Positions 27,035-43,600 of a DNA stretch of 64,000 bases are shown one piece after another (position 1 is the first letter of the stretch; each line of letters begins with the position of its first letter). Source of the DNA: a virus; IMG/VR virus record IMGVR_UViG_3300027833_000035, positions 1 through 64,000 of that record. The stretch is one strand, 5' to 3'. The position numbers and the translations under genes are program-made. The notes beneath the pieces were generated by a model. It searched no databases. It was not told the origin of the DNA and saw nothing but the letters and a program-made list of their open reading frames with translations.

Positions 27035-27499
27035 ATGCTGTTTGAAAACTTTGAAAACTTCCTATTAACAGAAGAATGTTTTAATAACCACGACGTATCG
27101 CATATAGATAACGACGGCAACCAGCATTACCTAGAACATTCAGAATATATTTCTTACCTCGGTCAGGTTACAATTTTACTAGCTAACAGAGCTACTATTA
27201 AAGTTGAACAAGCCGAGAAACTATTTGACTATAACGATAGGACAATACATTTATTTTATAATGATGTAGACGGTCCATCGTTTAAAGAACATACAGATCC
27301 TGTCGATGTTTTAATAGAATGTTTGGATGGTATAAAGGTTTTGGAAGTAGAAGGTGCTACAGTTATTCTGCAGCCAAACCAAAGCGTTTTTATACCTGCA
27401 GGAACAAAGCATAGAGCACTTAATAACAAAAAGGCATTAATGATTTCACATGGCATTCGCGACACCGAAACACTTACTCGTATACGTAAAAACGACTGA
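27035..27499 (+). CDS. Cupin protein, possible Fe(II) dioxygenase
   Basis: The 154-residue product has a double-stranded beta-helix with a likely metal site, KEHTDPVD (H86, D88) and PAGTKHRALN (H126), giving an H-x-D...H triad. LLANRATIKVEQAEKLF and VLQPNQSVFIPAGTKHR are typical cupin strand and turn patterns. I chose ATG 27035 because the upstream in-frame ATG (26975) lies inside the promoter. It is the first gene of the plus-strand radical SAM operon and overlaps the first radical SAM gene by 50 bp, so it may hydroxylate the same target or a partner. Its substrate is unknown. Confidence 0.7.
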   Translation: MLFENFENFLLTEECFNNHDVSHIDNDGNQHYLEHSEYISYLGQVTILLANRATIKVEQAEKLFDYNDRTIHLFYNDVDGPSFKEHTDPVDVLIECLDGIKVLEVEGATVILQPNQSVFIPAGTKHRALNNKKALMISHGIRDTETLTRIRKND

Positions 27500-28478
27500 A
27501 ACCTGCAATCTAAATTGCGCACACTGCTTTACGTCTGGTATCAATGGTAGAAAAATCTACTTTGATGCTGAGAAGACTGCTAACTGGTGCAATGAATTAT
27601 GCGATGGTAATAACGAAATACATTTTGAATACCACGGTGGCGAACCTATATTAGCTCCTATGGCAGACTTGATGAAGTTCTATAATATTACTAAAGAACA
27701 TTGGGGTGACCGATGTACGCATGGTATTACAACTAACTTAGTTTATAAACTTACTGACGAAAGACTTGAGTTTTTAAAAATGTTAGACGGTGGTTCTGTT
27801 GGTACATCTTGGGATCCAAACATTCGTTTCTCTAATGAAAAGCAACGTAAACTATGGGAAGATAACGTCAAACGTTTGGTTGACGAAGGCTGCTTTGTTA
27901 AATGCTTTATATCAGTTTCAAAAGATGTGGTTAAAATGGATCCCATTGAAATTGCTGATTATATGCATTCGCTTGGTGTCGGCGCTATTAATTATGAACG
28001 ATTAACACATGACGGTAATGCAACAATCAACACTGATATTTTTCCACACAACTCTGAGCTTGATGCTTTTTGGATGGATATGCATGAAAAGACTGCTGAC
28101 CATCCCGTTTATAATAGTTTCCTTAACACTGTATACGATAAGTTTAGTAAAGGTCAATTCTTTAATGGTACTTTCTGCAGAGACTGCGAGCAAAAGTTAC
28201 ATACCATCAACGCTGATGGAACTGTAGCCGGCTGCCCTAACACTGCGCCAACACAATGGTATGGTACGATTGATACTCCTGCAAAAGAGGTGCGCCAATC
28301 ACCAAAACGTATGGAAGTTATATCATGTGAAATGCATGAAAGAGATCCACGCTGTTATGATTGCCCTGTGTTTATATATTGCCATTCTGATTGTCATCAA
28401 CTTCAATGGATGGGAGACGTCTGTCCAGCTCCTAAAACATTAATGATGAAACTTGCGAAGGATAAAGGATGGATTTAA
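27450..28478 (+). CDS. Radical SAM/SPASM enzyme A
   Basis: The 342-residue product carries the radical SAM cluster motif TETCNLNCAHCF (C19, C23, C26) and the SAM-contact motif HGGEP at 62-66. It ends in a SPASM-like region: FCRDC, GTVAGCPN (C262), CYDCPVFIYCHSDC (C302, C305, C311, C315) and C325. SPASM enzymes carry extra Fe-S clusters and typically modify peptides or proteins, as in anaerobic sulfatase maturation or RiPP crosslinking. It overlaps the cupin gene by 50 bp and the next radical SAM gene by 10 bp. The substrate is not identifiable. Minus-strand CHxS proteins or the linked genes are candidates. Confidence 0.88.
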   Translation: MAFATPKHLLVYVKTTETCNLNCAHCFTSGINGRKIYFDAEKTANWCNELCDGNNEIHFEYHGGEPILAPMADLMKFYNITKEHWGDRCTHGITTNLVYKLTDERLEFLKMLDGGSVGTSWDPNIRFSNEKQRKLWEDNVKRLVDEGCFVKCFISVSKDVVKMDPIEIADYMHSLGVGAINYERLTHDGNATINTDIFPHNSELDAFWMDMHEKTADHPVYNSFLNTVYDKFSKGQFFNGTFCRDCEQKLHTINADGTVAGCPNTAPTQWYGTIDTPAKEVRQSPKRMEVISCEMHERDPRCYDCPVFIYCHSDCHQLQWMGDVCPAPKTLMMKLAKDKGWI

Positions 28479-29509
28479 TTATTAAGCCAACCGAGGCCTG
28501 TAACTTTAAATGTACCTTTTGTTCATCAACTGATATTGATGCTGACAAAGCTGGCTTACTTGATTTAGAATATGTTTATAAATTTCTAAAACGTTATCCT
28601 GACACCAATACTATTATTGTAAATGGTGGTGATCCATTAATGGTTGATCCAAAATGGTATTGGGATTTGATTGCTCACCTTGACGAACATGATTACCCTG
28701 CATCAATTAGTTTTACATCAAACCTCTGGCCATTCCTTATTAGACCAGAGAAATGGTTACCTTTATTTCAACACGAAAGATTTGGATGTACTACCTCATT
28801 TCAATATGGTGGTGGAAGATTAAAGGGTGATTACTCTGAGTTTACTGAAAAGGATTTTTGGCGAGTATCAGATGCTATGTTAAAACATACTGGCTCTCGA
28901 CCAGATTTTATTTCTGTAATCGTTGATGAAAACTTTGATGATGCTATTAAAAATGTAGAATTAGCGAAAGAGATGGGAGTCGAGTGCAAACTTAATTATG
29001 CAATGGCTTCTGGTGTTCAAGGCTCTACATTTAGGCTAAGTAAGATATATGAAACCTATATAAAGATATATGATATGGGTTTAGCTGAATACGAATATAA
29101 TACTAAACAAATGATGATAAGGTTAAATAAAAATAGTTGGACTACTTGTCCACAGAATAGACAATGCGATAGTGGTATACGCGCATTTAACCCAGGTGGT
29201 GATTACTATTCATGTGGTTCGTTTGCTGACGATTATGATTACCCTATTGATTTTGAGGAAGAAATGAATGGTGAAATGCAGACACCATTGCAGAATGATC
29301 CAAATATACAGACAATGAAATCAGCTTGCTATACTTGTCCGATGTTTGATATATGTAATGGTTGTAAAAAGACTGTGCGTGATATGAAACGCGAAGGTCA
29401 AGCTGAGGATCATTGTTATCATATGAAAAAACTAGCACCAAGAATACTTGAAATAAACGGCATGGACCCAGGATTGGCAACACCTTATGTTAATGAATCT
29501 ATCAATTAA
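28469..29509 (+). CDS. Radical SAM/SPASM enzyme B
   Basis: The 346-residue product starts MDLIIKPTEACNFKCTFC, giving cluster cysteines C11, C15 and C18. NGGDP (52-56) replaces the usual GGEP. The C-terminal third has many cysteines in a SPASM-like arrangement: CPQNRQC, GGDYYSCGSF, CYTCPMFDICNGC and a final DHC. It is thus a likely peptide/protein-modifying enzyme, although sequence differs clearly from enzyme A. GAAGGATAAAGG precedes the start codon, which overlaps enzyme A by 10 bp. It overlaps enzyme C by 23 bp at its 3' end. Function beyond the family level is not readable. Confidence 0.87.
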   Translation: MDLIIKPTEACNFKCTFCSSTDIDADKAGLLDLEYVYKFLKRYPDTNTIIVNGGDPLMVDPKWYWDLIAHLDEHDYPASISFTSNLWPFLIRPEKWLPLFQHERFGCTTSFQYGGGRLKGDYSEFTEKDFWRVSDAMLKHTGSRPDFISVIVDENFDDAIKNVELAKEMGVECKLNYAMASGVQGSTFRLSKIYETYIKIYDMGLAEYEYNTKQMMIRLNKNSWTTCPQNRQCDSGIRAFNPGGDYYSCGSFADDYDYPIDFEEEMNGEMQTPLQNDPNIQTMKSACYTCPMFDICNGCKKTVRDMKREGQAEDHCYHMKKLAPRILEINGMDPGLATPYVNESIN

Positions 29510-30401
29510 TCCAACATACTATTGTAACTTCGCTTGCGATTTCTGTTACTTAACAACAGAGCAGCTAAACGATAGACATAAAATTACTCCTTTATGGTTA
29601 GAGAATAGCCTACAACAAATTACTGACGAGGTTGGTCATGTTGATTTATATGGTGGAGAAATTGGTTTACTATCACCGGAGTATTATTATTCATTAAAGA
29701 AAGTAATACGTAATCATTACAAAGGCCCAATTAATATTAATACTAACTTGTCGGCATTCCCTGACTTTTTTAGAGATGAGGATGTAACGTTATCAGTATC
29801 ATATGATTTCCATGCCAGAGAAAAAGAGCAGCATGTTTTAAATAATATGATGAATGCCAACAAGGATTTATCTGTATTGATATTAGCCTCGCCAAAAGTG
29901 TTAGAGATGGATGTAGAGTTTATGATTTTTACACTTAATATGATTTCTAATGTTAAATCAGTTGAGATTAAACCATATTCAGTTAATCAGGCAAACCAAC
30001 ATAATGTAACTCATAAAGACTTTGAGGATTTCGTTATTAGGTTTGATGAAGCAAACACTGTAAAGAATTTTAATTTTCAAAACATTGATAACATATACGA
30101 TAGCATAGAAGGCAAGTATGACGCATTTAGTAATGACCATGTTTATATAACACCGCGTGGGAAATTTGGCGTCTTGGAATTCGATAAATACGACAGAGAG
30201 TACTTTAAAGAATACGACACTTACCATGAATATCAAACATGGGCACGTGAAGAACCTGAAAACAATTTGAGCGATATATGTAACGTATGTTCTTATTATG
30301 GGAAATGCTTAACAGAACATTATCGGTATGTACACGACTTAACCAATAGTTGTAATGGATATAAAGGGTTATTAGAATATTATGAAAGAATGGAAAGCTA
30401 G
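29487..30401 (+). CDS. Radical SAM enzyme C
   Basis: The product has about 302-304 residues (a second in-frame ATG at 29493 is equally possible). It shows NPTYYCNFACDFCYLTT, the CxxxCxxC radical SAM motif within the first 20 residues, and YGGEIGLLSP in place of GGEP. Its C-terminal region is shorter than in A and B, with CNVCSYYGKC and a final NSCNGYKG, a reduced twitch/SPASM-like cluster site. It may bind one auxiliary cluster. The gene overlaps enzyme B (23 bp) and the following unknown gene (20 bp). Divergence from A, B and D suggests a distinct step rather than a recent copy. Confidence 0.85.
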   Translation: MLMNLSINPTYYCNFACDFCYLTTEQLNDRHKITPLWLENSLQQITDEVGHVDLYGGEIGLLSPEYYYSLKKVIRNHYKGPININTNLSAFPDFFRDEDVTLSVSYDFHAREKEQHVLNNMMNANKDLSVLILASPKVLEMDVEFMIFTLNMISNVKSVEIKPYSVNQANQHNVTHKDFEDFVIRFDEANTVKNFNFQNIDNIYDSIEGKYDAFSNDHVYITPRGKFGVLEFDKYDREYFKEYDTYHEYQTWAREEPENNLSDICNVCSYYGKCLTEHYRYVHDLTNSCNGYKGLLEYYERMES

Positions 30402-30780
30402 ACAAAGCGCGTATCATTTAACAGCATCTTTATTTAAAGACGATTTAACTGATGTAGAAATTAATTGGCAGCCAGATAATATCGTTGAGGATGCACTAAC
30501 GCATTTCAGACAATATGTTGACGAATGGGTCTACCCTGCAAAATCGTATGTAGTTGCTATATGTTATGCCCATTGGTTAAATAGAGATTTTAAAGAACCA
30601 TTCTTTGATGCTCTTAATGACGAAGCCTTATTGTTTAATAATGATCCACACTTTGTTCCATATTGGGCAGACAAAGAAACATATGACGATATACTATTTA
30701 AATTAGACTTTAACGAAAAACTTGGTATGGTACCTGACATATACGAATATTATAAAGAGGAAATGTTATTTGGACTTTGA
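30382..30780 (+). CDS. Unknown 132-residue protein within the radical SAM operon
   Basis: The gene lies between radical SAM genes C and D, overlapping C by 20 bp. The product is acidic and aromatic-rich (MKEWKARQSAYHLTASLF, FRQYVDEWVYPAKSYVVAICYAHWLNRDF, EYYKEEMLF) and predicted helical. It lacks cysteine motifs for a cluster and has no signal peptide. RiPP systems often include a small partner that binds the precursor and guides it to the radical SAM enzyme (RRE-type). The position is suggestive, but I see no RRE fold signature. A precursor or partner role is inference only. Confidence 0.6.
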   Translation: MKEWKARQSAYHLTASLFKDDLTDVEINWQPDNIVEDALTHFRQYVDEWVYPAKSYVVAICYAHWLNRDFKEPFFDALNDEALLFNNDPHFVPYWADKETYDDILFKLDFNEKLGMVPDIYEYYKEEMLFGL

Positions 30781-31846
30781 AATAACAAAAACACTATTAG
30801 AATCTAAACGTCCGGATATAGCCGAGATTGAGTTGACTTTATTTGAAAACTGTCATCTTAATTGTTCGTTCTGTCATCACGATAAAAAATCTACCGTAGG
30901 TTTGAGTAGGGAAGAGATATTCTCTAAATTGGATTTAGTTGAACAACATGTCATTAAGATGAAAGGCAGAGTTGATATAATCCAAATCAATATGGTTGGC
31001 GGTGAGTTATTCCAAGATAGAATATCAGAATGGGCTTACCCTGTTTACTTTGATTTCCTTGTAGCAATCAAAAAGGTATTTGACGAACATAAGCAAAAGA
31101 TTAAAGTTGTGTGGGTAACATCGTTTCAATTTAGCAAACGTGAAAGAGTACAGAAACTACTCGACGACCTAAACGCTGAAGCAATCCCTTCATATATTAT
31201 ATGTTCATATGACTTTGACGGGCGACCAACAAAAGGTCCATACGCTAAAAATATAGAATACTTTGCTGACTATATCGTATCAATTAATATGGTTGCTACT
31301 ACTTTGTCAATCAAAAAGTTTATGGCAGACGATGATGAGTATTTCCATTACTTATATGAAAAGTTTGACGAATTCTATTTTGATGATTATATTCCAGATC
31401 GTGGATATGATTATATGATACCATCAGATAGTGAGTACCTCGAGTTTTTAAAATTCGTATACCATAACTATCCAGACATTAATCCTATTAAGGATCTCAT
31501 ATATAACGAGAGTAATCACATGCATTGCTTGGCTCTTAATAAGGTTACGATATTCCCAGATAACTCTACATCAAATTGCCGCTGGGATAGATACGATCAA
31601 CGAGATTTTAATACAGAATACAAACCTAAAGATAACGCCGGAATGATGCAAGCATATATGGATGAAAACGGTTGTCTATCTTGTCAGTGGTATAATAAGT
31701 GTGGATTTAGATGCTATACCCAATGGGATTGGAAAAACAGAGAACGCGATTTACCTGACTGCATAATGAGAATGTGGTTTAATTATATGGACAAAACAGG
31801 TCAAAATTTGATAACAGGATTTAATTATGATAAAGAAAAAACTTAA
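30770..31846 (+). CDS. Radical SAM/SPASM enzyme D (TTG start)
   Basis: I place the start at TTG 30770, where AGAGGAAA gives a good ribosome site, rather than the upstream in-frame ATG deep inside the previous gene. The 358-residue product then has LFENCHLNCSFCHH (C28, C32, C35), followed by NMVGGELFQD at the GGEP position. C-terminal SPASM-like cysteines are CLALNKVTIFPDNSTSNC, GCLSCQWYNKCGFRC and a final LPDC. It is the fourth distinct radical SAM enzyme in this operon and overlaps its neighbours on both sides. The substrate is unknown. The architecture suggests a peptide or protein. Confidence 0.85.
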   Translation: MDFEITKTLLESKRPDIAEIELTLFENCHLNCSFCHHDKKSTVGLSREEIFSKLDLVEQHVIKMKGRVDIIQINMVGGELFQDRISEWAYPVYFDFLVAIKKVFDEHKQKIKVVWVTSFQFSKRERVQKLLDDLNAEAIPSYIICSYDFDGRPTKGPYAKNIEYFADYIVSINMVATTLSIKKFMADDDEYFHYLYEKFDEFYFDDYIPDRGYDYMIPSDSEYLEFLKFVYHNYPDINPIKDLIYNESNHMHCLALNKVTIFPDNSTSNCRWDRYDQRDFNTEYKPKDNAGMMQAYMDENGCLSCQWYNKCGFRCYTQWDWKNRERDLPDCIMRMWFNYMDKTGQNLITGFNYDKEKT

Positions 31847-32546
31847 ACTTGATTTTTATACATCACACAAAACGCTTATAGAATTACAACCAATTCAATC
31901 TAGAACTAAACCACCATCATGGTGGAAGTCTATTAAGAATTCGTATAGCCAATTTAGGTCTAGGGCTGGTACTAAAGTTCCAACTCCAACGGTTAAAACT
32001 TGTCCTGGGATTGTTGATTATATTCGCAAACCTATTGTTCTTAAACTATGGTCGGATGGTATTTTTAAAGTAAAACCAAACGGTGATGTTGAATGTATTG
32101 AACCCTTACAAGGATCTGGCATACTTGATGGATCTCAACATGAACGTAGACAATTTGGTGATACATTATATCCAAACTGTACTGTATTTAAACTACATGG
32201 TCCATGGTCAGTTAAATCAAGTGAACGTAAAGAGTTTATGATTACTGAATGTCATTACACTGAAGATTTGCGTAAGCATGGTATTTTAATCTCACCTGGG
32301 ATTACAAACTTTTATGACCAACATACTTTAAACTGTTTTTTAGTATTTCCAATTAAAGACGAAGAATATACTGTAACGCTTAAATATGGTACACCTATTA
32401 TGTCAATATATCCAATGCACGAAATGGAACTTGATATTAAAATGCATGAGGTAGCTACACGTCAGGAATGGCAAGAAATACAAAACGTATTCCCATCAAC
32501 CTTTATCGGTCGTTATCACTCCCGGAAACACACACGCGGTAAGTGA
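31827..32546 (+). CDS. Unknown 239-residue protein closing the plus-strand operon
   Basis: The product starts with KLDFYTSHKTLIELQPIQSRTKPPSWWKSIKNSYSQFRS, a Trp/Pro-rich N-terminus. It is beta-rich afterwards, with KLWSDGIFKVKPNGDVECIE, KLHGPWSVKSSE, YDQHTLNCFLVFP and YTVTLKYGTPIMSIYPMHEMELDI. It has only a few cysteines and no radical SAM motif. It resembles uncharacterised marine phage proteins, but I cannot name a family. It overlaps radical SAM D by 20 bp, so it belongs to the operon and could be a substrate, a scaffold or an unrelated virion protein. Its last 51 bp overlap the last 51 bp of a minus-strand radical SAM gene. Confidence 0.65.
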   Translation: MIKKKLKLDFYTSHKTLIELQPIQSRTKPPSWWKSIKNSYSQFRSRAGTKVPTPTVKTCPGIVDYIRKPIVLKLWSDGIFKVKPNGDVECIEPLQGSGILDGSQHERRQFGDTLYPNCTVFKLHGPWSVKSSERKEFMITECHYTEDLRKHGILISPGITNFYDQHTLNCFLVFPIKDEEYTVTLKYGTPIMSIYPMHEMELDIKMHEVATRQEWQEIQNVFPSTFIGRYHSRKHTRGK

Positions 32547-33524
32547 ATGGTGTTCCATATAACTTAGTACACCTTTATCAATACATGTCATTAAATTTTT
32601 ACAATTGGCACAGTTATCAGATTTACTTGAATAAGCCAACTGTGACATGAACTTATTGTCTTTTACCTGAGTCCACGACTCAATATCATTTTCATCCTTG
32701 ACTACAAAATTATCTGTACCAATTAAAGCTATATCATATACGAATGGTGTCCAAAAGAAACGTTCGTTACAATAAGTATAATTTAATTCTAAAGAACCAC
32801 CTTGCGCTTGGTCAATAAATGTTTTAGGCATAAGATCGTCAGCAAAGTCATAGTTCTTCCATTTTTCAATAAGATGTTTTTGAACTTTAGATTTTGGCGC
32901 TCGGAAAAACGATGGATTTAAAGTAAGAATAGAATCAAACTGTTCTTCAACGAGTTTTGACATTTCGAGTACCTTATGGTTCTCAACATCATCATTACCC
33001 ATATTATATACCATATAATAATTTAAATCATCTGTCAACCCGTTTAATATATCTAATTTATATTTAAGTACATTCCAATTAACAGGTGGCTGCAACGCTA
33101 TATTACAATCATACATAAATCCATCAGCTTTTGGAATACTATTTAATAACTCAATAACATTATAATCAATCTTTTCCAATGTTGTAACGAATTGAATAGT
33201 AGTTACTTTACTTAAACACTCTCGGAATGTTTCATCTTTTAATAACTCTGTAATATTATTATTACCAAATAAATCAGTTGGACCAATATTAATGGTTGAC
33301 ACGCGGTACCCATTGGTATTAAATAAATCAATGGCATTATTTAATCTATCAAACGATCCCATATTTGAACCGAGTTTATTAACAAAACAACCTTTGCATT
33401 TAAACTCGCAGCCAGATAATACCTCACAATTAAACTGTACTTTGATTTCATGTCCTTCATTAAAGGATAAATCAAAATCCTTATCGGCTTGAGCAGCACG
33501 TTTATTATTAGTAACTATTCCCAT
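32496..33524 (-). CDS. Radical SAM enzyme E (GPTD subfamily)
   Basis: This is the last of five related minus-strand radical SAM genes. From the ATG at 33524 (GAGG ribosome site, 17-bp overlap with the upstream gene) the 342-residue product has LSGCEFKCKGCFVNK with cluster cysteines at 39, 43 and 46. TINIGPTDLFGNNN stands where GGEP normally lies. The C-terminal end has an auxiliary cluster set, CANCKNLMTC plus a later TACVFPG. FFWTPFVYD matches the LSPFxYE motif of its paralogues. It overlaps the opposite-strand unknown gene by 51 bp. Confidence 0.85.
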   Translation of the reverse strand: MGIVTNNKRAAQADKDFDLSFNEGHEIKVQFNCEVLSGCEFKCKGCFVNKLGSNMGSFDRLNNAIDLFNTNGYRVSTINIGPTDLFGNNNITELLKDETFRECLSKVTTIQFVTTLEKIDYNVIELLNSIPKADGFMYDCNIALQPPVNWNVLKYKLDILNGLTDDLNYYMVYNMGNDDVENHKVLEMSKLVEEQFDSILTLNPSFFRAPKSKVQKHLIEKWKNYDFADDLMPKTFIDQAQGGSLELNYTYCNERFFWTPFVYDIALIGTDNFVVKDENDIESWTQVKDNKFMSQLAYSSKSDNCANCKNLMTCIDKGVLSYMEHHSLTACVFPGVITTDKG

Positions 33525-34662
33525 GGTAAACCTCATCATCATATAAACCAATTACATCTTTATTTAAAATACATTCTTTTCTTCCATCAAATACGGTATC
33601 CATAATCATTGGAACCATTCTATTCACGCATATATTTAAATACTTACAATCGCCGCATTCTTTGCTTCCACTATTTTCAATCTGTTTAACAACGATTTCG
33701 TCTTTCTTTTTTAGAATATAATCAGTTATATCCGCGTCAGGCAGCATCAACCAACCATTATCAACTTTAAAATCATCTGTATGGATCTGAGCATTCTCAT
33801 ATATGAATGGAGACAAATACATATCACCGTGGTATATACTGACTACCGAATAATGAAATGCTTTATGTGATACATCACCTTGTAAGAAATGGAATTTGTT
33901 TTTAAACTTATGTGGATCTGCAGCCAACCGAGTTAGCATATCGTTCCATTCAAATAGTTTATTTCCATGTTTTGCACTATGATTAAAAGAACGTACTACT
34001 GATGGCAATACTTCAATAACAGTTTCATACCTACTCCTAACAAACTCAATGGCAGGGAATAGTATATCCTCTACACCTTGTACGATATTAGTAGCCATAC
34101 TTATTTCAAAGTTTAAAGAACTATTCTTAAACGTTTCAACTCTTTCGTCGAGTGCATCTAAGTATACTTGATCGTTCATTAATCTATTTAAATCCAAAGC
34201 GATTTGTACATCCCATGCTTCAACGACCTTACCCAGCGGTGAGTTTTCAATAGATTTTATCTTACCCTCAATATCCTTTTCAGATAATGATCCAAGTATA
34301 GAACAGTTATGTTGGATATTTCTATTATCCTCAGGCATCATTAATATAGCATCAGCAAGCCTTTGATTATTAATAATCTCTTCTAAATTTTGAGCACCAT
34401 AAAAGTCAGTAGGTCCGATTACAATATCGTCCAATACAACATCAGTTCTATCTTTTAATTCATACGCCAAGGAATGAAACGTTGCGATTGAGTTTGGGTT
34501 CCAATTACCTTTACGTTTAACAAAACAACCCGGACACATATATGAACAGCCTTCAAGTATTTCAAGGTTGACTTGTATTTTATATTCTTTCATATTGTCG
34601 ATTGAAGTAAATTCCTCACCACGTCCACCGTCTACAATATTTTTCCAATCATTATTTAACAT
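33508..34662 (-). CDS. Radical SAM enzyme F (GPTD subfamily)
   Basis: The 384-residue product has LEGCSYMCPGCFVKRKGN (C39, C43, C46) and IVIGPTDFYGAQN. The C-terminus has MYLSPFIYENAQI and auxiliary-cluster cysteines C336, C339 and C345 (CGDCKYLNIC) plus C364 (ECILNKD). Four of the five paralogues share the first-Cys position 39 when the best start codons are used, which supports the start choice. AAAGGA precedes the ATG. It overlaps its neighbours by 11-17 bp. The shared layout suggests recent duplication followed by specialisation, perhaps for different residues of one target. Confidence 0.87.
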   Translation of the reverse strand: MLNNDWKNIVDGGRGEEFTSIDNMKEYKIQVNLEILEGCSYMCPGCFVKRKGNWNPNSIATFHSLAYELKDRTDVVLDDIVIGPTDFYGAQNLEEIINNQRLADAILMMPEDNRNIQHNCSILGSLSEKDIEGKIKSIENSPLGKVVEAWDVQIALDLNRLMNDQVYLDALDERVETFKNSSLNFEISMATNIVQGVEDILFPAIEFVRSRYETVIEVLPSVVRSFNHSAKHGNKLFEWNDMLTRLAADPHKFKNKFHFLQGDVSHKAFHYSVVSIYHGDMYLSPFIYENAQIHTDDFKVDNGWLMLPDADITDYILKKKDEIVVKQIENSGSKECGDCKYLNICVNRMVPMIMDTVFDGRKECILNKDVIGLYDDEVYHGNSY

Positions 34663-35809
34663 ATGATATATCCTTTAAACGTTTTAGTTCTGGGTCGTCG
34701 TCATCAGTAACCAAAAACTTTTTACGATAACCATTCTTATCGTTTTCAACTGAATAGCCATCCCATTCATACATTGTTTGAGCAGGACCATTATAGTTGT
34801 TTATATTATTTAGCATATTCTCTTTAGGAGCAATGCAGCGATCTACTCCGAGGTAATCCCTTAACATTATTATTTTTCTATTATAACAACTAAAGAACAA
34901 CGGACAATCCTCACACTCAGTTCCTTTTGCTCTTTCAATTTGATGTTCAACCATTGGAACAACGTCATTAAAAGATTTTACTTTAAACATATCATCGTAT
35001 ATAGCCATGTTCTCATACATGAATGGACTTAAATACCATTCACCACGTTTATAGTTTAACACAGTGTAATTAATACCTGCATGAGAATGGTCTACCATAA
35101 TATTGTTTAGCTTTGACTCTTGGTGCCATGTGCTAAAGTATTCATTAAACTCATCGAGTGTCTTTAAGATTATGTTTGCTTTATGAGAACGAGATACTGA
35201 CGGAATAAAATCCAATATAGTATCAAAACGTTTTACTGCTTGATCGTGTAATGCTTCATAATCTAATCCATAATCTTTAATATTAACAACAAACGTATAA
35301 GTAACCTCATGCATAATATGTTTATCTATATAAGCTAACATATCTGATATATGTTTCGTGTATTCATCAGTAAAGAATTTATGTGGATTTGTAGCGATAC
35401 CAATTTCTATTTCAGTATCGAGGTTAATGTTATCCATAAGAAAATTACAGAACTTTTTAATATCACCATCAATAAGAGTTGACACAAAAGCTAGGATAGG
35501 AGAGTTTTCATTAATAATATCTACGAGTTCTGGCATTACTTCATAGAAATTTTCTGATGCCAAAAAGTCTGTTGGACCGATTAATATTTCATCAACAAGT
35601 ATTCCTTGGTCAGTAATCGAACGTATAAACTCTTTTGCCATAAATATTTGGCTTTTATCGCTAGCGTTCCCCCGTCTATGTACAAAGCACCCAGGGCACT
35701 TGTGGTGACAACCGTCTAGTATATCCATTTGAATTTTGACGGCACTGACGGGCTTAGTTTGGGTCTCTGTGGTCATCTCATAATAGAGATTATTTTTAAT
35801 CAGAGGCAT
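34652..35809 (-). CDS. Radical SAM enzyme G (GPTD subfamily)
   Basis: The 385-residue product has LDGCHHKCPGCFVHRRGN (C34, C38, C41) and ILIGPTDFLASEN, then EWYLSPFMYENMAIY. The auxiliary cluster is CEDCPLFFSC followed by DRCIAPKE. An extra C-terminal tail of about 60 residues (TMYEWDGYSVENDKNGYRKKFLVTDDDDPELKRLK) sets it apart from the paralogues. AAGGAATATAT precedes the start codon. It overlaps the upstream gene H by 14 bp and gene F by 11 bp. Confidence 0.87.
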   Translation of the reverse strand: MPLIKNNLYYEMTTETQTKPVSAVKIQMDILDGCHHKCPGCFVHRRGNASDKSQIFMAKEFIRSITDQGILVDEILIGPTDFLASENFYEVMPELVDIINENSPILAFVSTLIDGDIKKFCNFLMDNINLDTEIEIGIATNPHKFFTDEYTKHISDMLAYIDKHIMHEVTYTFVVNIKDYGLDYEALHDQAVKRFDTILDFIPSVSRSHKANIILKTLDEFNEYFSTWHQESKLNNIMVDHSHAGINYTVLNYKRGEWYLSPFMYENMAIYDDMFKVKSFNDVVPMVEHQIERAKGTECEDCPLFFSCYNRKIIMLRDYLGVDRCIAPKENMLNNINNYNGPAQTMYEWDGYSVENDKNGYRKKFLVTDDDDPELKRLKDISYVK

Positions 35810-36818
35810 ACATATATTCCTTCAATGCGACGCAGTTATCTAATCCTCGCGACTCCATATATAAATGTATATTACGTTCAGCACAGCTCATCATATATTT
35901 GCAGCCATTACAATCATCAACCTGTTGAGCATATTCAATATTATCATATAAAGTATTTGCATCCATCGTTGTTTCAAAATTTGGAGTTCTTTGAATAATA
36001 ACATCATATAAGAATGGATTTAAATATAGTTTATTATTATAAAAGCTATAGTTTTGGCAGCCATATCCATTAAACTTTGCATCAAAGAATGTATAAAGAT
36101 TAAGCCATTTTTTATCAATGTTTTGCTCAACCATTTCGCGTCTAAAGTTTGCTAGGTGCTGTTCCACCTTACCGCGTGCATTCCTATCTGTTAGAAACGA
36201 CGGCGTAATTATAACTGGTGCATTATAATCATCAAATATTCGTTGACATAAATCATTATAGCCGATACGTTTAAATACATCTTTATGGTAATTAACTCTA
36301 AATTGAACTGAACCTAATTCAAACATTTTGAGTTTACGGTTCCAATCGTCTAGTTCTCCATCAAGGTACTTATCTATATCTAAAACGATTTTAAAATCAA
36401 TATCAGGTACTCTGTGAATGCCTTCGTATAAACTCCAAATCTTATCGAGCTTATCCTTTATTTCAGCATATGGTTGAAGTAACGTTGATGTAAATCCAAC
36501 TGCCGATATTTCATAAAGCTTTTTCATATATGGATGGTTCATAATCTCGTAGAAGTTCTCTGCGTCAAAAATGTCAGTAGGACCAACCGTTATTTCGTCA
36601 GGATAATAAGAACCATTAATTAAAAGATTATAAAGCGTTTCTAAATTATCAGCCTTAGTAAGGTTCTTACGTGGAATAAAACAACCTGGGCACGACTGAG
36701 CGCAGCCATGTAATATGTCTAAGTTTATTTCAGTACGTAAAAAGTCTGTATTAATAGGGCTTTTATTTTCATCATACGTATAGTAACCTGCGTATGTTTT
36801 ATTCAGTTTCACTGTCAT
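35796..36818 (-). CDS. Radical SAM enzyme H (GPTD subfamily)
   Basis: From the ATG at 36818 (GAGG in the preceding gene as ribosome site) the 340-residue product has LHGCAQSCPGCFIPRKN with cysteines 39, 43 and 46. ITVGPTDIFDAEN follows, then LYLNPFLYDVII, CNGCKYMMSC and DNCVALKEYM. A longer in-frame start exists at 36905 but would put the cluster cysteines 29 residues further in than in the paralogues and lies inside the upstream gene. The gene overlaps the unknown 278-residue gene by 20 bp and gene G by 14 bp. Confidence 0.85.
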   Translation of the reverse strand: MTVKLNKTYAGYYTYDENKSPINTDFLRTEINLDILHGCAQSCPGCFIPRKNLTKADNLETLYNLLINGSYYPDEITVGPTDIFDAENFYEIMNHPYMKKLYEISAVGFTSTLLQPYAEIKDKLDKIWSLYEGIHRVPDIDFKIVLDIDKYLDGELDDWNRKLKMFELGSVQFRVNYHKDVFKRIGYNDLCQRIFDDYNAPVIITPSFLTDRNARGKVEQHLANFRREMVEQNIDKKWLNLYTFFDAKFNGYGCQNYSFYNNKLYLNPFLYDVIIQRTPNFETTMDANTLYDNIEYAQQVDDCNGCKYMMSCAERNIHLYMESRGLDNCVALKEYMYASD

Positions 36819-37635
36819 TAGTATTGGCCTCGGCTTCCGATTGAATATCAGCTTTAATGTCAGCCTCGATTTCCTCTTCAGTTTTTGGTTTTGGAATATC
36901 AACACTAATAATAAATCCAGGAGGCATCATTGATAAAATGTTATTTGTAATATTAGCTTGTGTCAATACATAAAACAAATCTTTACCAAAGTATGCTGGC
37001 TTATCGTTATACATTTGTTTATTATATTGCATTTTAAATCCAAGCATAGAACAAACTAATAGGAAACCATCCCAACCGTCAGTAAGGAGACGCGCAACGT
37101 TTGGACCACACACTGTTGGTTTATCAACTACTGTAATTTGGTCAACTGCGTCTTTTACTTCAATTTCAATTGCTTTGTTTTCATCTGATAAATTTTCGTG
37201 GAATTTACAGATTACGAATGGAATAAGTTCAGCCATGTTATTACAAACTTCATCAATCAAATCAATATGTTTATCAACAAAATCGTGTAACTGATCTTTA
37301 CTAAATATGTCAAGTAATTGCTGTTCTAAACCATTAAACTCATATCTATATCTAGCTTTAATAGCCATCACAACAAACCGTGATAGGAAAGGGCTATCAA
37401 TAATAAAGTCTGATTTAATATATTCCAACAACAAGTCTTCATCGACTTGAGCAAAAGTTGTTTTAAAGTTAGTGTTTGCTAAATAAATTAGAATATGTTT
37501 AGCTGACAGCTTTTCTTTAGATGCCAAATAATCTACCCATAAAACAAAATCTTCATCTTCTTCTTTTACCTTATAGATCTCAACTAAATTCTGAGGTGCT
37601 AATGGTAAAGTATATATATTTTTTTCTTCACTCAT
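36799..37635 (-). CDS. Unknown 278-residue acidic protein in the minus-strand radical SAM operon
   Basis: The product is helical and acidic, with no cluster cysteines or transmembrane segments. Notable stretches are IYTLPLAPQNLVEIYKVKEEDEDFVLWVDYLASKEKLS, SPFLSRFVVMAIKARYRYEF and a strongly acidic C-terminus (TEEEIEADIKADIQSEAEANTNDSETE). It lies between radical SAM genes H and I. A CATAAATA sequence (7/8 late consensus) 28 bp upstream could give extra transcription. Candidate roles are a precursor-binding partner, a scaffold for the enzymes or a virion component. None is shown by the sequence. Confidence 0.65.
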   Translation of the reverse strand: MSEEKNIYTLPLAPQNLVEIYKVKEEDEDFVLWVDYLASKEKLSAKHILIYLANTNFKTTFAQVDEDLLLEYIKSDFIIDSPFLSRFVVMAIKARYRYEFNGLEQQLLDIFSKDQLHDFVDKHIDLIDEVCNNMAELIPFVICKFHENLSDENKAIEIEVKDAVDQITVVDKPTVCGPNVARLLTDGWDGFLLVCSMLGFKMQYNKQMYNDKPAYFGKDLFYVLTQANITNNILSMMPPGFIISVDIPKPKTEEEIEADIKADIQSEAEANTNDSETE

Positions 37636-37650
37636 AATAAAATCACTTTC

Positions 37651-38754
37651 TTATATCAATGGGTATTTATGAATTAAATATGGTATTCTGTTTTGGCGTT
37701 TTGAAAAGAACTGAACATCTGTATTGATTAACGCTAAGTCTTCTCTAATATTATCTGTGTTAAAGTTTCTTTCTAAAACCTTTTTAACGATAGGGAACAC
37801 ATTATTGATTTCAGTATATAGATCCATGTATTCCCAACCATCCGCTGTAGTATCAGCTTTGTTTTGGTGAACCGCAATAAAATCAGCATCGTCTTTAACT
37901 TTATTCCATAACTCTTCTAATAAGTAAAACGCAAGTGTGTAGTTAGATTTATTAGCAGCATTTACATATACATCTTTAAAGAATTGTTTTTTGTCTGTAG
38001 CCCAATCATTCGCGTCAGTTGCATTGGCATTCATATAATCAATGACTGACATAATGTATGCTGAATAGTGACGACGTGAAGTAAAGTGTTCCATAACATC
38101 TCTTGCCATAACTGGTGAATGGATAGTAAACTTCTCAACGATTAATTCTGAAATCGGTGTACATGGATAAAAATCATTTAAGAAGAACAATAAGTCATAA
38201 CTAAAGTTTTTACCATTTTGATATGTAATTACCCAAGGTGTTTCGCCTTCAGCATTTAATAAAGTATTCGTGTGGTTTCTAACATCGTTATAAACTGTTG
38301 AGTCACTCATTAATGATAATACTAAATCTTGGTTAATCACTGCTTCCATATAATGGGCAGTCATAGAATTAATTGTTGTTGCATCGGCATCAGGGTAGAA
38401 ACCAGAGGCTGTTAATAATCCAGCGGTATATTTAGCAAATACTTTAATCATATCCTCTTCGTCTGTAAACATAAGGATACGTTTATCACTGTTTTGAATA
38501 TAGTCAGCATTAGCAACGTCTTCCCATTGCTCAAAATCCAATAGTGAAGCAGCATTAGAACGTGCGTTATTTGCCAACAATTCGTATTCAGCAGGCTGAA
38601 GGAATGCATCTTCAATATCAGGATGAACGATTGTAATTCTTCTTGGCTCAGCAGTATGATAAAAAGAATTTAATTCACCAATTACTGTTTCAACGTTTTG
38701 CGTATTTGTAATATACTTTTTATTATTTAAGTAATATAAACTCTGTCCAATCAT
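37651..38754 (-). CDS. Unknown 367-residue protein in the minus-strand radical SAM operon
   Basis: I use ATG 38754, whose ATGA overlaps the stop of radical SAM gene I and which has an AGGAG ribosome site. The product begins MIGQSLYYLNNKKYITNTQNV and is mostly helical, with PRRITIVHPDIEDAFLQPAEYELL, FTSRRHYSAYIMSVIDYMN and AFYLLEELWNKVKDDADF. It has no recognisable catalytic motif and almost no cysteine, so it is not a radical SAM enzyme. Its strict coupling to gene I suggests that the two proteins work together. A partner that presents the CHxS tail is a reasonable but unproven guess. Confidence 0.65.
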   Translation of the reverse strand: MIGQSLYYLNNKKYITNTQNVETVIGELNSFYHTAEPRRITIVHPDIEDAFLQPAEYELLANNARSNAASLLDFEQWEDVANADYIQNSDKRILMFTDEEDMIKVFAKYTAGLLTASGFYPDADATTINSMTAHYMEAVINQDLVLSLMSDSTVYNDVRNHTNTLLNAEGETPWVITYQNGKNFSYDLLFFLNDFYPCTPISELIVEKFTIHSPVMARDVMEHFTSRRHYSAYIMSVIDYMNANATDANDWATDKKQFFKDVYVNAANKSNYTLAFYLLEELWNKVKDDADFIAVHQNKADTTADGWEYMDLYTEINNVFPIVKKVLERNFNTDNIREDLALINTDVQFFSKRQNRIPYLIHKYPLI

Positions 38755-39926
38755 AATTTTGCTCCTAATTTTTCTATTGCGTCGTCGTTCCAAGTGAAAT
38801 CGTATGGATTATATTCAGCAAGAACATCTTTGTTCAATACACAGCCATTAACATTTAATGATTCTTGGGCTTCAAAGATCAGTCTACTTGCGCAGGCAAC
38901 TGCGAATTTACAGTCAGCACAGTCTTTTACTTTACTCGACTTATTTATACCTTTTGTTACTAATTCATTTTTACGATCTAATATTTCTTCGAATGTTAAA
39001 CCAGTAACATCTAAATTTTTATTACCTAAGAAAAACGCTTGTTCATGTAGCATTACATTTAGGTGTGTGGTTGGACCATTTTCTCCTGGAACAATTGTAA
39101 GTCCAACAAAGTTAATTGAGTTACAATAAAGATTAGCCATTGACATAACAGTTTCTTGTGCGTTATCTTTATCAATAACTCTACCAAGGAAATCGTTCCA
39201 TCCAAACAAATTCTTTCTTTGAACCAATTGTGAGTTTGCCCTAGAAAAAGCAGGGTTCATTTCTACGATTGTTTCATATTCATTTACAGATTTTTGGATA
39301 ATCTTATTGTATGTTTCTTTATCAATCTTTTTGCCAACAACGTTAGAAGCCTGAAGTGTCCACGACCAATCCATTTGTTTTGGCGTATTGTTTTTAAAGA
39401 ACTCTACCTTTTCCATAACGTTATCAAAGTATTCATCATCATTTAACATCTGCTCTACTCTGCCGATTGGCATAATAAATTCGATAATCATTTCGCGGCG
39501 ATACTTATCTTCATCGTCAAGTACAGCAAAGATTTCTTTTACTTTATCCATAGTTGCTAAATCAAATTTAGCAGGTGCCGCGATACGAGCTCCGGTATGT
39601 TCTCTCATAATCTCTTGGACTACTGAGTTATTTAATACTGACTCTGTATTCTTGGCAGTGAAAAAGTCTGTTGGTCCAATAACGAATTCTCTTAGGTTAA
39701 GGCCAGTTCTTTTTACACCATCGGCAAGTTCTTTTGCTCTATCAATAATTTGTTGGTTCATAGCAGGGTCAATGTTTTTATCAACGAAACAACCTAGGCA
39801 GCCGTGATTACATCCAGCCAAAACTTCCATTTGAATTAAAACATCAAACTTAGTAGCATCCGAAGGTGTTAGACTTTCTGGTCCTGAGTACCTCATTTGC
39901 TTACAATATGATTTTTGCATTGACAT
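38751..39926 (-). CDS. Radical SAM enzyme I (GPTD subfamily), first after the CHxS proteins
   Basis: The ATG at 39926 is 1 bp after the stop of the second CHxS gene, and its ribosome site (AGAGGAAGAAG) is the coding sequence for the RGRR tail of that gene. The 391-residue product has LAGCNHGCLGCFVDK (C39, C43, C46), FVIGPTDFFTAKN at 82-92, and auxiliary-cluster cysteines C336, C339, C345 (CADCKFAVAC) and C362. Its LSPFxYE-like region reads HLNVMLHEQAFF, more diverged than in the other four. Its position makes it the first candidate to act on the CHxS tails. Confidence 0.88.
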   Translation of the reverse strand: MSMQKSYCKQMRYSGPESLTPSDATKFDVLIQMEVLAGCNHGCLGCFVDKNIDPAMNQQIIDRAKELADGVKRTGLNLREFVIGPTDFFTAKNTESVLNNSVVQEIMREHTGARIAAPAKFDLATMDKVKEIFAVLDDEDKYRREMIIEFIMPIGRVEQMLNDDEYFDNVMEKVEFFKNNTPKQMDWSWTLQASNVVGKKIDKETYNKIIQKSVNEYETIVEMNPAFSRANSQLVQRKNLFGWNDFLGRVIDKDNAQETVMSMANLYCNSINFVGLTIVPGENGPTTHLNVMLHEQAFFLGNKNLDVTGLTFEEILDRKNELVTKGINKSSKVKDCADCKFAVACASRLIFEAQESLNVNGCVLNKDVLAEYNPYDFTWNDDAIEKLGAKL

Positions 39927-39927
39927 G

Positions 39928-40308
39928 TTATCTTCTTCCTCTCGAACTGTGACAACTACTATGGCAGCTGGCATGACAGTAATAAGCATTGATTGTTCGG
40001 TTACTCATTCTGCCTTCTATTAAGTCGACTGTTCTTCTAGTTAAATCTTCTAATGTATCAACAATATCTTGTGCGTAAATTATCTGACCTGAATTAATGC
40101 CACCATCTACATAGTTATTATATACATAATAGTTTGCATTCACAAATTCAAATCTATGATAATGCCATTGGCCTGTGGTATAACTTGTAACACCTGTACC
40201 ATTAACATATGCGTTAACATAAATTCCAACATTTCTATCAAACGTTCTTAATTGTTGTCCACCATACGTCATTACATACGAATTAACGTCACCTCTATCC
40301 ATAGTCAT
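39928..40308 (-). CDS. CHxS-tail protein 2 (candidate radical SAM substrate)
   Basis: The 126-residue protein is a tandem paralogue of the upstream gene. Residues 1-108 look like a small beta-rich domain (QLRTFDRNVGIYVNAYV, TSYTTGQWHYHRFEFVNANYYVYNNYVDGG). The C-terminus reads YCHASCHSSCHSSRGRR: three C-H-x-S repeats and a basic tail. It has no signal peptide. The start codon overlaps the upstream stop (TAATG), and the radical SAM gene I starts 1 bp after its stop. The tail could be the modified segment of a RiPP-like substrate. Alternatives are a metal-binding tail or a fibre-tip protein that is not modified. Confidence 0.8.
   Translation of the reverse strand: MTMDRGDVNSYVMTYGGQQLRTFDRNVGIYVNAYVNGTGVTSYTTGQWHYHRFEFVNANYYVYNNYVDGGINSGQIIYAQDIVDTLEDLTRRTVDLIEGRMSNRTINAYYCHASCHSSCHSSRGRR
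39931..39981 (-). other. CHxS repeat tail, copy 2
   Basis: Coding segment for YCHASCHSSCHSSRGRR, the last 17 residues of CHxS protein 2. It has three Cys-His-x-Ser units, and each contains a His-x-Ser triplet. Confidence 0.85.
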
Positions 40309-40688
40309 TAGCGGCGACCTCGCGAGCTATGACACGATGAGTGACAACTTGAATGGCAGTAATATGCGTTAATAGTTCTATTTGATAATCTTCCTTCAAC
40401 CAAATCAACAGTCCTCCGTACGACGTTACGAATTGAATCAATAACATTACCTGAACGAATAATTCCGCCGGTGTATATACCACTAGACATATACCCATTA
40501 TAATAAGAATATGAAGCGTTTACAAACTCGAACCGTGTATAATGCCATTGGCCTGTGGTATAACTGTATCGTCCACCGTTTGCATATACATAAGCATTAA
40601 TATAAAACCCAACGGTCTTATCAAAGGTTCGTAATTGTCGACCACATTGAGTCTGTAAACTACTATTTAACTGTGCATAACTTGGCAT
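40308..40688 (-). CDS. CHxS-tail protein 1 (candidate radical SAM substrate)
   Basis: The 126-residue protein begins PSYAQLNSSLQTQCGRQLRTFDKTVGFYINAYVY and shares the TTGQWHY-RFEFVNA core and LSNRTINAYY hinge with its paralogue. It ends CHSSCHSSCHSSRGRR. The gene starts 1 bp after the stop of the giant tail-fibre gene, a position where T-even phages encode fibre-tip adhesins or chaperones. The C-terminal tail is encoded with very different codons from its paralogue despite near-identical residues. It has no cluster motif of its own. Function as a virion tip protein with a modified tail is inference. Confidence 0.8.
   Translation of the reverse strand: MPSYAQLNSSLQTQCGRQLRTFDKTVGFYINAYVYANGGRYSYTTGQWHYTRFEFVNASYSYYNGYMSSGIYTGGIIRSGNVIDSIRNVVRRTVDLVEGRLSNRTINAYYCHSSCHSSCHSSRGRR
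40311..40361 (-). other. CHxS repeat tail, copy 1
   Basis: Coding segment for YCHSSCHSSCHSSRGRR in CHxS protein 1. It differs from copy 2 by one residue, while most synonymous positions have changed. Confidence 0.85.
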
Positions 40689-40689: not shown

Positions 40690-43600
40690 CTATACTTTAA
40701 CCTCTACTTCACCATTTTCACTATCACTTATCGCGATACCAATTATTTCATAGCTATTTATACCCGGAGTACCATAGTCAACTCCCTTAGCTTTACCATC
40801 ACCAGCAGGGATTACCCATTGGCCTTTCTTAACATCTTCACTTACTAAACATGGGATCCGACCTTTAAGAGCAATGAACGGATTCATTAATGCTTTTGTA
40901 GAAGTAGATCCAGGCTCAATTCCCATGTCGTTCATTTGAACAGCAGGGTTTGTTGATATGACACCAGCAAGAGGCATGCCCGGTTCCCATTTAGTAACTT
41001 CTGAGTCACCTTCAATGTTAATACCCATAACAGTAGCATTTTCATATACAGCATCTGCAGAATATCTCTCTGCAAGGTCAGCCCATCTTGCTGACGTAGC
41101 TGTACCAACATATAAACCACCATTATCAATATACGATCTATCAGAACCATTTTGTCTAAACTGACAAATACGGTTTGAGTTACCACCAGAAGTAATATAG
41201 AAACGGTTTGAGTGGTATTCAATTTTACCAACATCGTTTCCTGGGTTACCTGTCCAAGATTCGTTACCAGATTCTTCAAATCTAATACATGGTGAATAAC
41301 CATCTTGGTGTCGTGTTCTTAACTGCCATTGACCCGCAGCATTCAAATCGCCTGACCATGTTCTGTCACCATACATCCAACGACACATTGTACCGTTATA
41401 TGTTGCTCTAAGTTGTAGAGACATAGACGAAGAGTTATTGTTACCAGTGATAGCATAATACTGACCTTGGTAAGAATAAGCGTGTACACCGGTTTGCTGG
41501 TTGTAAATACCCTCACGTTGACCGTCGTTACGGAACCAATTACGAGCATATATTTCATTGGCACGAACATAATCATTGAAGTTAGAACCTGATGATGGAT
41601 TACAATAATAACCAGTATTATCTCTGTCGTAGAAGATTGGCGCACGGAATGAGGATGATGCATAAGAGTTGCCATCACACATTGCTTGGAAGTACCAACC
41701 TGAAATACTATCAGTAGCATTACCGTGCATCCCAACATAGAAACCTGTTGACCCTGTAGTGTTATTATTATTTGAGTCAAGGTTAAAGAATATGTCGTGG
41801 TATGAGTTAAATCGTAAATCGTCTGATACACCTCCACCACTGTCTCTGGAAGATATAGAGTGATAAGTACTGTCGTTACCATAGAATGTAATAAAGTCAC
41901 CACGATCTCTTGCGTTTAACTGATCCCATTCAATCGTACTCATTTGCGAAGTAGATGCTGGGTTTGTATAACGATTTGTATCGTTTGAGTCGTAGAAGAT
42001 TGGAGCTCTTAATGAACTACCAGCTTGTAATGAGTTATTTACATAAACGTCGTTAGCACCAAGTGGATCAGAACCGTTATTGATTGACATGACCTGAGTA
42101 TTCATTGTATAGTCATCGTAGAAACGCATACCATTATAACTAGCATTTGCACCCATCTTAATACCAGTGTGGAAAGCAATTCTTAGATCCGGGTATGGGT
42201 AAGTCCAACCACCACCTTCACGATAGATAGCGTAAGCAGTTGATTCATTACTTCCAAAGTACAAACCAAATTGGTCATTTTGTGAAACATCATCTTTGTG
42301 TACAAATCTATTTGCTCTAATGTCGCCAGCAAAATTGTTATCACCGGCTGGATTTAAAAAGTATGCAGAGTTGTTACGATCGTAATAAGTATTGGCATAT
42401 ATATCACCATATACTTCAGTTGTACCACTTCGAGTTCTTAGTGCCCAGCTACCAGATTGATTAAGGAAACCAATATCATTTGAGTTGTTTGCATATACAT
42501 AGCCTCGAATAGTACTTCCATTATCATCTCTAAATCGTATACCATTAGCAGAGCCACCGCCTGCAACGTTCCAATAGTCATCGTTGTCTGAATAGAAATG
42601 CTGACCTGTTGCAGTGTTATATAAACCACGACCATTTGTATCGTTACGGAACCAACCATCGTTATAAACTTCTGAACGAATATCAAGTGTATGCATTACT
42701 GATGTTGAAGCAAAGTCACCGTAATAACCTGTACTGTCACGGTCATAATATCGTCCAGAGTAAGTTCCACCTGTTACGAATATGTTACCATCACCACGAA
42801 CAAGAAGATTTGTTGTACCTGATAAGCCGCCATCTCTAAACGCAATGTCTTCACCGCCTGATGTAGCAATAATTAAGTGAGCATCATTAGTATCAGTAGC
42901 TTGGATATAACCACGAACATTGCCAGCATTTGTAATAAACTGAGCTTCACCACCGTCAGCAAACTGAATAACATCTACTTTTGATGTACTTGATGGATCG
43001 ACGTAGAAAGATGTATCGTCTGAGTCAACTAATCTACTTGCATAGAAGTATGAACTTGTACCGCCGCCTGGGTTTGCGTTATAGATAGCAATATCAGAAT
43101 AAGAAGAATAGGCTGTACCTGAGTTCCATGACTGTTGCCATAGACGCATACCACGACCAGACTTTTTAAACATCAATAAGTTATCTGAACCGCCAGAAGA
43201 GTCTGTGTAAGATCTTAAGTGTAAGTAATCGGCATATGGTGCAGTGTTATTATTGTTCCAAGATGTGAAACCAAACGTTAATCGACCTGCAGTATCTTCG
43301 TTAGGTTCAATAATACGGTTATCTTTGCGTAATAATGATCCTGCATAACCATTAACATTACCTTGGATTACGTTATCAACTTGTAATGTTAATAGTCTCG
43401 AAGTACCATTACCGTCAATTTTGTATGCAGTATTGTCACTGTCATACCAAATTGGTGAACGTAACTGATTAACACCTAGGAAGAAACCATCTTTAGTAGA
43501 CGCTTGTTCTTCACCATTATAATAAAGTTCAACATCGCCATTTTGACGGAAGATTTGTGCCCATTCGTCGTTAGTATCATTAAAGATACCAGCAACGCCA

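Follow-up and report, generated by a model that had tools for sequence, protein, structure and literature searches.

Why would a phage carry nine radical S-adenosylmethionine (SAM) genes beside two small proteins that end in the same Cys- and His-rich repeat? The question is raised by positions 27035–40688 of a 64,000-nucleotide stretch of marine viral DNA (positions 1–64,000 of the 72.9-kb IMG/VR record IMGVR_UViG_3300027833_000035), hereafter the window, which is identified as T4-like by its matches to tail sheath, large terminase, portal, scaffold, baseplate, and fiber families. A preliminary description of the locus, made from the letters alone, had listed radical SAM genes, a cupin gene, four members without an assigned function, and two tandem proteins with C-H-x-S repeats. 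Open reading frames (ORFs), motifs, and family matches bear out this inventory in full: nine ORFs contain a CX3CX2C motif, four on the plus strand (P1–P4) and five on the minus strand (G1–G5), and two tandem proteins of 126 residues each (T1 and T2) share 16 C-terminal residues of the form CHxSCHxSCHxSRGRR, here called the CHxS tail. We propose, as the probable explanation, that the enzymes belong to a system resembling those of ribosomally synthesized and posttranslationally modified peptides (RiPPs), which would crosslink or oxidize the tail of a fiber-associated protein for attachment. The preliminary description had also suggested radical SAM action on this tail, an idea that gains strong indirect support from the two-way linkage of tail and enzymes, the invariance of the tail, the maturase-like architecture of P1 and predicted fold of G1, and the position of the genes in fiber operons; it needs revising in that P1–P4 form the core of the system, to which the G genes, marked by a GPTD motif, are a variable addition.

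The CHxS Tail and Radical SAM Genes Occur Together

The preliminary description had asked whether CHxS tails and GPTD-type radical SAM genes co-occur in viral metagenomes. When IMG/VR was searched with G1, making no use of the tail, 47 loci were recovered, and all 47 carry CHxSCHxSCHxSRGRR or a near variant. In the opposite direction, a scan for the tail pattern alone gave at least 115 viral loci in which the match is a genuine C-terminal tail, and radical SAM genes accompany every one of the 115 listed records: 102 show a radical SAM-like ORF within the retrieved stretch, and for each of the remaining 13 the whole record contains at least four genes of the radical SAM family PHROG_1802. Tail proteins that generally lack the enzymes, the outcome named beforehand as speaking against the idea, were looked for and not seen. 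Among control loci, where the pattern matches by accident (internally or in low-complexity sequence), only 3 of 77 have a radical SAM-like ORF. Contigs longer than 20 kb that encode P1 also encode the tail in 26 of 37 cases, and the remaining 11 end, by distances calculated from contig ranges, 1.2–10.9 kb 3′ of P1, the tail of the window lying 11.5 kb 3′ of P1. Wherever both P1 and a tail gene are seen, they are on the same strand (75/75) and mostly within 45 bp of each other (63/75). Because many of these records are related, the counts do not represent independent events; the jumbo-phage and bacterial cases described below are the strongest independent ones. Together, the loci show the strict linkage of maturation genes to a precursor with a conserved core that is expected of a RiPP system.

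The Tail Is Invariant and the Protein Bodies Are Not

The DNA pattern of the tail occurs twice in the window and in none of 100 shuffles. In 58 aligned relatives of T1 and T2, with a mean identity of 43%, the Cys, His, and Arg residues of the tail are invariant while synonymous codons vary freely. The pattern scan required these residues and left the other positions free, so that their invariance in that set is not evidence, and we therefore used it to examine the remaining positions in 76 distinct tails. The x residues vary freely. Ser predominates two positions after His, where Asn or Ala can also stand and, rarely, Gln, Lys, or Arg. Gly is found at 34 of 228 x positions and at 0 of 228 positions two after His, which suggests that the latter position requires a residue with a beta carbon; radical attack on this carbon would fit such a requirement. 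Cysteines are scarce outside the tail, and 115 of 171 tail proteins have none there.

In contrast to the tail, the bodies of these proteins fall into 12 clusters by BLAST, and the clusters of dissimilar bodies include those of the jumbo phages FLC6, SURPRISE13, DT01, Phosso, and Atu_ph07. Some clusters are perhaps distantly related, as phrog_35144 is matched by 49 of 56 scanned members of the largest cluster and also by T1 and T2. The predicted structure of T1 has a confident small helix–hairpin–helix domain and a low-confidence tail, and fold searches with it returned no structural match. Searches of the phage collection by tblastn with a tail protein or the tail consensus also found nothing, probably owing to the filtering of low-complexity sequence and to the shortness of the tail; the DNA-pattern scans worked.

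Two further observations concern the repeat itself. One locus (L091, 8105–8878) encodes a tail protein with four CHxN-type repeats (CHSNCHSNCHSNCHTNRSRR) and shows seven radical SAM-like ORFs. The last repeat of the tail, C-x-x-S-R, resembles the sulfatase motif CxPxR, and we rejected formylglycine formation as an explanation, the likeness being a mere resemblance.

P1 Has the Architecture of a Peptide Maturase

All four plus-strand enzymes match PHROG_1802 (E 3e-55 to 8e-21) and have CX3CX2C near the N terminus followed by a GGE-type SAM motif (GGD in P2), and are thus radical SAM family members. Across 42 P1 sequences, the invariant columns include CX3CxHC, GGE, C246, G257, C262, C302, C305, C311, C315, and C325, which reproduce the SPASM pattern C-X9-15-G-X4-C...C-X2-C-X5-C-X3-C...C; P1 is accordingly a full radical SAM/SPASM enzyme. 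Its best curated NCBIfam models are peptide maturases (DarE, CbpB, DarW, and DynA, as well as HxsB and the sulfatase maturase), all of them scoring far below the cut-off (DarE 53 bits, DynA 36 bits, sulfatase maturase 34 bits). P2 is 51–61% identical to its relatives in jumbo phages and Bdellovibrionota, and P4 is 54% identical to a gene in Bacteriovorax (L370). The SPASM region of P1 in the window (around 28380) holds CHSDCH, which resembles the CHxS repeat; this is probably chance, since other P1 proteins mostly have CGGDCH.

The five minus-strand enzymes are more divergent, and none matches a radical SAM family above cut-off in the profile libraries. They are mutual paralogs (E down to 1e-31), and their CX3CxGC motif is kept in all 41–44 aligned G sequences; the family also retains GPTD and a C-terminal CX2CX5C...C. 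The predicted structure of G1, the only one of the five that was modeled (pLDDT 81, pTM 0.82), has CteB, the anaerobic sulfatase maturase anSME, and ChlB as its top matches in the Protein Data Bank (PDB; E 6e-6 to 1e-4, probability 1.00), and we assign G1–G5 to the radical SAM enzymes by CX3CX2C and barrel fold, the fold being taken from the G1 model alone. CteB is a sactipeptide-type thioether enzyme, and CteB, anSME, and ChlB all act on peptides or proteins. Nothing informative came from sequence searches of the PDB with G, P1, and tail proteins. In the clade of the window the G genes have expanded; elsewhere there are one or two relatives.

A Conserved Core in Fiber Operons of Other Phages

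The conserved core of the system consists of the cupin, P1, the tail protein, the Z gene, P4, P2, and P3, and the commonest order outside the window is fiber, cupin, P1, tail gene, Z, a gene of ∼360 codons, P4, P2, and P3. The window's Z278 corresponds to Z (hhalign 98.9%, E 1.8e-17); homology of W380 to the ∼360-residue protein was not supported (hhalign 11.8%). In the jumbo phages SURPRISE13, DT01, Phosso, and Atu_ph07, the cupin, P1, and tail genes are consecutive, and P4, P2, and P3 come after them; in FLC6, cupin, P1, and tail gene were read. Profile scans recognized no leader-cleavage protease or transporter in the core cluster, four members of which have no known function. One locus (L095, 6720–11050) has five tandem similar ORFs of 285–293 residues 5′ of the cluster.

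A homolog of the C terminus of the window's giant fiber is encoded upstream of the tail gene, on the same strand, in each of the 62 loci in which it can be detected. It ends 3–16 bp before the tail gene, or ∼0.4 kb before it if a further tail gene lies between; in a third arrangement the spacing is 1.1–2.7 kb, usually with cupin and P1 in between. Pfam finds no domain in this C terminus. In Atu_ph07, the tail protein is gp170, with the C terminus FCHSSCHASCHNSRSRR, P1 is gp171, and the cupin is gp172. According to the text of the paper on this phage, virion mass spectrometry assigned the majority of virion proteins to three clusters, among them coding sequences 170–215 (PMC6102473); gp170 is the edge gene of this cluster as given there, which suggests that it was detected in the virion.

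The Same Genes Are Found on Bdellovibrionota Chromosomes

The preliminary description had treated the system as phage-encoded, and in this it was too narrow, as the same set is chromosomal in Bdellovibrionota. The tail pattern occurs in genomes of this group, most of them metagenome-assembled, and no Terminase_6N gene was found in the genomes that bear it. Neighboring genes are chromosomal in kind: acyl-CoA and 3-hydroxyacyl-CoA dehydrogenases in L369, pyruvate kinase in L370, and an ABC-F-like ATPase and a FixG/CcoG-like protein in L372. All five bacterial regions retrieved (L369–L373) contain P1, P4, and X132, P2 and P3 are found in four of the five, and bacterial P2 is 51–57% identical to the phage gene. 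The bacterial genes are placed among phage genes in the P1 tree, so that exchange between phage and bacterium, in one direction or the other, is likely. An S74 fiber-chaperone protein is encoded near the clusters in L369 and L372, and Bdellovibrio attaches to its prey via S74 fibers (PMC10769870). Pilin-like N termini were noticed beside two bacterial loci, by eye only. Phages and these predators face a common problem, namely how to dock on another bacterium, and on this basis we read the system as one for attachment.

Comparison with Known Systems

The nearest known counterparts are the radical SAM/SPASM maturases of RiPPs (DarE, DynA, CteB, ChlB, and PapB) and anSME, which P1 resembles in its radical SAM motif, GGE, and SPASM cysteines, and to which the G1 fold is nearest (CteB, anSME, and ChlB). 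In contrast to these, P1 falls far below every curated cut-off, the clusters hold four to nine enzymes each, and the presumed substrates are proteins of ∼100–370 residues with a fixed C-terminal tail and no recognized gene for leader cleavage or export. The His-Xaa-Ser (Hxs) system, cited in the preliminary description as a parallel, likewise combines radical SAM enzymes with a neighboring protein whose C terminus carries a repeat of the His-x-Ser type, but the repeats here are C-H-x-S, in three copies, followed by RxRR. Kinship with Hxs was not upheld: HxsB scores 33.8 bits against a cut-off of 370 and HxsC 23.3 against 267.9, and neither the Hxs repeat-protein model nor HxsD matches T1, T2, Z, W, X, Y, the cupin, or three other tail proteins.

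Phages were said beforehand to carry rarely more than one or two radical SAM genes, to which the Campylobacter phages CP220 and CPt10, with 11–12 each, are a published exception (PMC2853527). These, too, are T4-like phages with many radical SAM genes, but no CHxS tail is present in either genome, and we reject them as examples of the same system: they represent a separate multi-radical SAM system, itself unexplained. The mosaic adhesive trimer fibers of Bdellovibrio are phage-like, contain S74 proteins of the type found near two chromosomal CHxS clusters, and come from a predator of the same type; radical SAM enzymes go unmentioned in the main text of the paper describing them (PMC10769870). 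In PHROG, most of the scanned tail proteins fall into phrog_35144, which has no function assigned, and P1–P4 into PHROG_1802, called radical SAM only, and the entries shown annotate no link between the two families. A description of the tail or the system was not found in the open full-text literature, a coverage that excludes most subscription papers; earlier papers had named individual genes as accessory or metabolic.

Gene Content of the Window

Two convergent sets of genes make up the locus (Table 1). The minus strand reads, in order, fiber genes including the giant fiber of 2795 residues, then T1, T2, G1, W, Z, and G2–G5; the plus strand reads cupin, P1, P2, P3, X132, P4, and Y239. Neighboring genes within both sets overlap or almost touch, as in operons. 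The starts given for the cupin, G1, W, G2, and G5 are corrected, likely ones. The cupin gene is 5′ of P1 in the window and in the jumbo phages, and relatives of X132 extend its linkage to the system to Bdellovibrionota.

Table 1. Genes of the radical SAM locus in the window (L numbers denote other loci)
Feature	Positions	Strand	Evidence and remarks
Cupin-fold protein, Fe-dioxygenase-like	27035..27499	+	PF07883, E 8.6e-8; relatives in L006, L007, L008, L271
P1, radical SAM/SPASM (CNLNCAHC, GGE)	27450..28478	+	PHROG_1802, E 3e-55
P2, radical SAM (CNFKCTFC), SPASM-like cysteines	28469..29509	+	PHROG_1802, E 1.9e-54; Pfam Radical_SAM above cut-off
P3, radical SAM (CNFACDFC), single auxiliary-cluster type (CX2CX5C...C)	29487..30401	+	PHROG_1802, E 3.6e-32; motifs
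X132, small conserved protein, no function assigned	30382..30780	+	phrog_20737, E 3e-33; relatives in L006, L007, L008, L369–L373
P4, radical SAM (CHLNCSFC) with CX2CX5CX3C	30722..31846	+	PHROG_1802, E 8e-21; start tentative (TTG at 30722 overlaps X132)
Y239, no function assigned	31827..32546	+	phrog_7084, E 3e-18
G5, divergent radical SAM (CEFKCKGC, GPTD)	32496..33524	-	Paralog of G1–G4; alignments
G4, divergent radical SAM (CSYMCPGC, GPTD)	33508..34662	-	Paralog of G3, E 2.5e-31
G3, divergent radical SAM (CHHKCPGC, GPTD)	34652..35809	-	Kept across clades of this architecture
G2, divergent radical SAM (CAQSCPGC, GPTD)	35796..36818	-	ORF reaches 36905 with GTG start
Z278	36799..37635	-	Homolog of gene directly 3′ of tail gene in other phages; hmmsearch E 2e-15
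W380/367, no function assigned	37651..38754	-	hhalign 11.8% with ∼360-residue protein encoded at same place elsewhere
G1, divergent radical SAM (CNHGCLGC, GPTD)	38751..39926	-	Directly 3′ of tail genes; start abuts T2 stop
T2, tail protein ending YCHASCHSSCHSSRGRR	39928..40308	-	CHxS tail
T1, tail protein ending YCHSSCHSSCHSSRGRR	40308..40688	-	CHxS tail
Giant tail fiber, 2795 residues, ends just before T1	40690..49077	-	phrog_18345, tail fiber protein

Beyond the locus, a 2-oxoglutarate (2OG)-Fe(II) oxygenase (PF13759, E 2.7e-13) is encoded at 26366–26929, divergently from the cupin, and similar oxygenases occur within jumbo-phage clusters. Two genes without an assigned function (410 and 347 residues; 23278–25550) recur in the same order beside the cluster in L064 and L067, where they are accompanied, as in the window, by two DUF7936-like small proteins (25580–26309).

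Proposed Maturation of the Tail and Alternatives

T1 and T2 would be made during late expression as fiber-associated proteins with a fixed 16-residue tail, which P1–P4 would bind, helped in the clade of the window by G1–G5. The Cys/His/Ser repeats would then acquire radical-dependent changes, of which crosslinks, inside one repeat or from one to another, or oxidations are the most likely; candidate crosslinks are a thioether at Cys or His-to-Cβ rings within H-x-S. Cys thioethers are made by CteB and other SPASM enzymes, and His-x-Ser rings are candidates from radical SAM RiPP enzymes generally. Z, the cupin, and X132 may assist, and the Fe-dependent oxygenases (cupin and 2OG) may finish crosslinks. 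The RGRR end (more generally RxRR) is most likely the recognition handle, and Z perhaps also guides the enzymes. Once modified, the tail could serve as a tip, rigid or reactive, at the tail fiber or next to it, helping the particle engage the host envelope. The genes, their two-way linkage, the conservation of the tail, the enzyme class of P1, the place in fiber operons, and the presence in bacteria are computed results; from them we infer the tail as substrate, its presence in the virion, and the timing, chemistry, and attachment role.

Several points weigh against this proposal. The presence of gp170 in the Atu_ph07 virion is suggested by a cluster boundary in the text of the paper (PMC6102473), and, because the T1 fold matches nothing, gene position is our sole ground for inferring a place at the fiber tip. 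The fold matches of G1 have modest TM-scores (about 0.4–0.49). Four to nine enzymes are many for 16 residues. No modified peptide has been seen so far, and a tail of such short and constant sequence could bind metal unmodified.

That last point can be made into an explanation of its own, in which the three tails of a trimeric fiber bind Zn or Fe through Cys and His as an unmodified metal-binding tip and the radical SAM enzymes serve some other end. Known phage needles do have His-rich or Cys/His tips that bind metal, the invariant side chains include Cys and His, and the tail genes adjoin fiber genes; we nevertheless consider a bare metal tip unlikely, as it leaves unexplained both the invariant RxRR end and the four conserved maturase-like enzymes that always go with the tail, in phages as in bacteria. 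It is similarly improbable that the product is a secreted or intracellular RiPP-like toxin or signal, acting on the host or on competing phages or bacteria, and no part of the virion. The nearest NCBIfam models of P1 being antibiotic maturases (DarE and DynA) and the presence of the system in predatory bacteria would fit such a role, whereas no leader or export gene was recognized, a crude test found no hydrophobic N-terminal signal in 171 tail proteins, the bodies of these proteins measure ∼100–370 residues, their genes are within fiber operons, and gp170 borders a virion-protein cluster as delimited in the text on Atu_ph07 (PMC6102473).

We give still less credence to the tail as a mere recognition tag or scaffold through which the enzymes modify a neighbor such as the upstream fiber: the fiber C-terminal domain is upstream wherever detectable, RGRR is handle-like, and the x residues vary freely, but the invariant Cys and His and the lack of Gly two after His fit a site of chemistry better. 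Finally, auxiliary metabolism, with radical SAM enzymes making a cofactor, sugar, or nucleotide for the host cell and linked to the tail through cassette inheritance, would agree with published metabolic readings of phage radical SAM genes (PMC7150976, PMC2853527) and is very unlikely given co-inheritance with the same tail across T4-like phages, jumbo phages, and Bdellovibrionota chromosomes, and a P1 SPASM pattern and G1 fold that point to peptide substrates.

Implications for Phage Attachment

Maturation of a fiber-associated tail by radical enzymes thus remains our preferred explanation. In its widest form, it would have phages and predatory bacteria share one way of finishing an attachment device, in which at least four dedicated radical SAM enzymes turn the CHxS3-RGRR tail into a crosslinked, nonstandard peptide tip by which a particle or predator would engage another bacterium; whether it extends that far we regard as evenly balanced. 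We know of no virion part matured by radical SAM chemistry, and this would be the first. The proposal can be tested now, as cultured carriers exist (Atu_ph07, Phosso, FLC6, SURPRISE13, and DT01), and existing raw virion mass spectrometry data for Atu_ph07 may already hold the answer on the gp170 tail.

If the proposal is true, at least 115 IMG/VR records and cultured jumbo phages build host-attachment parts with radical enzymes that have until now been treated, if at all, as accessory or metabolic. It would also yield new enzymes for peptide modification, whose recognition tail is short and portable. Chemical modification would thereby enter virion structure, and phages would be linked to bacterial predators via a shared attachment device.

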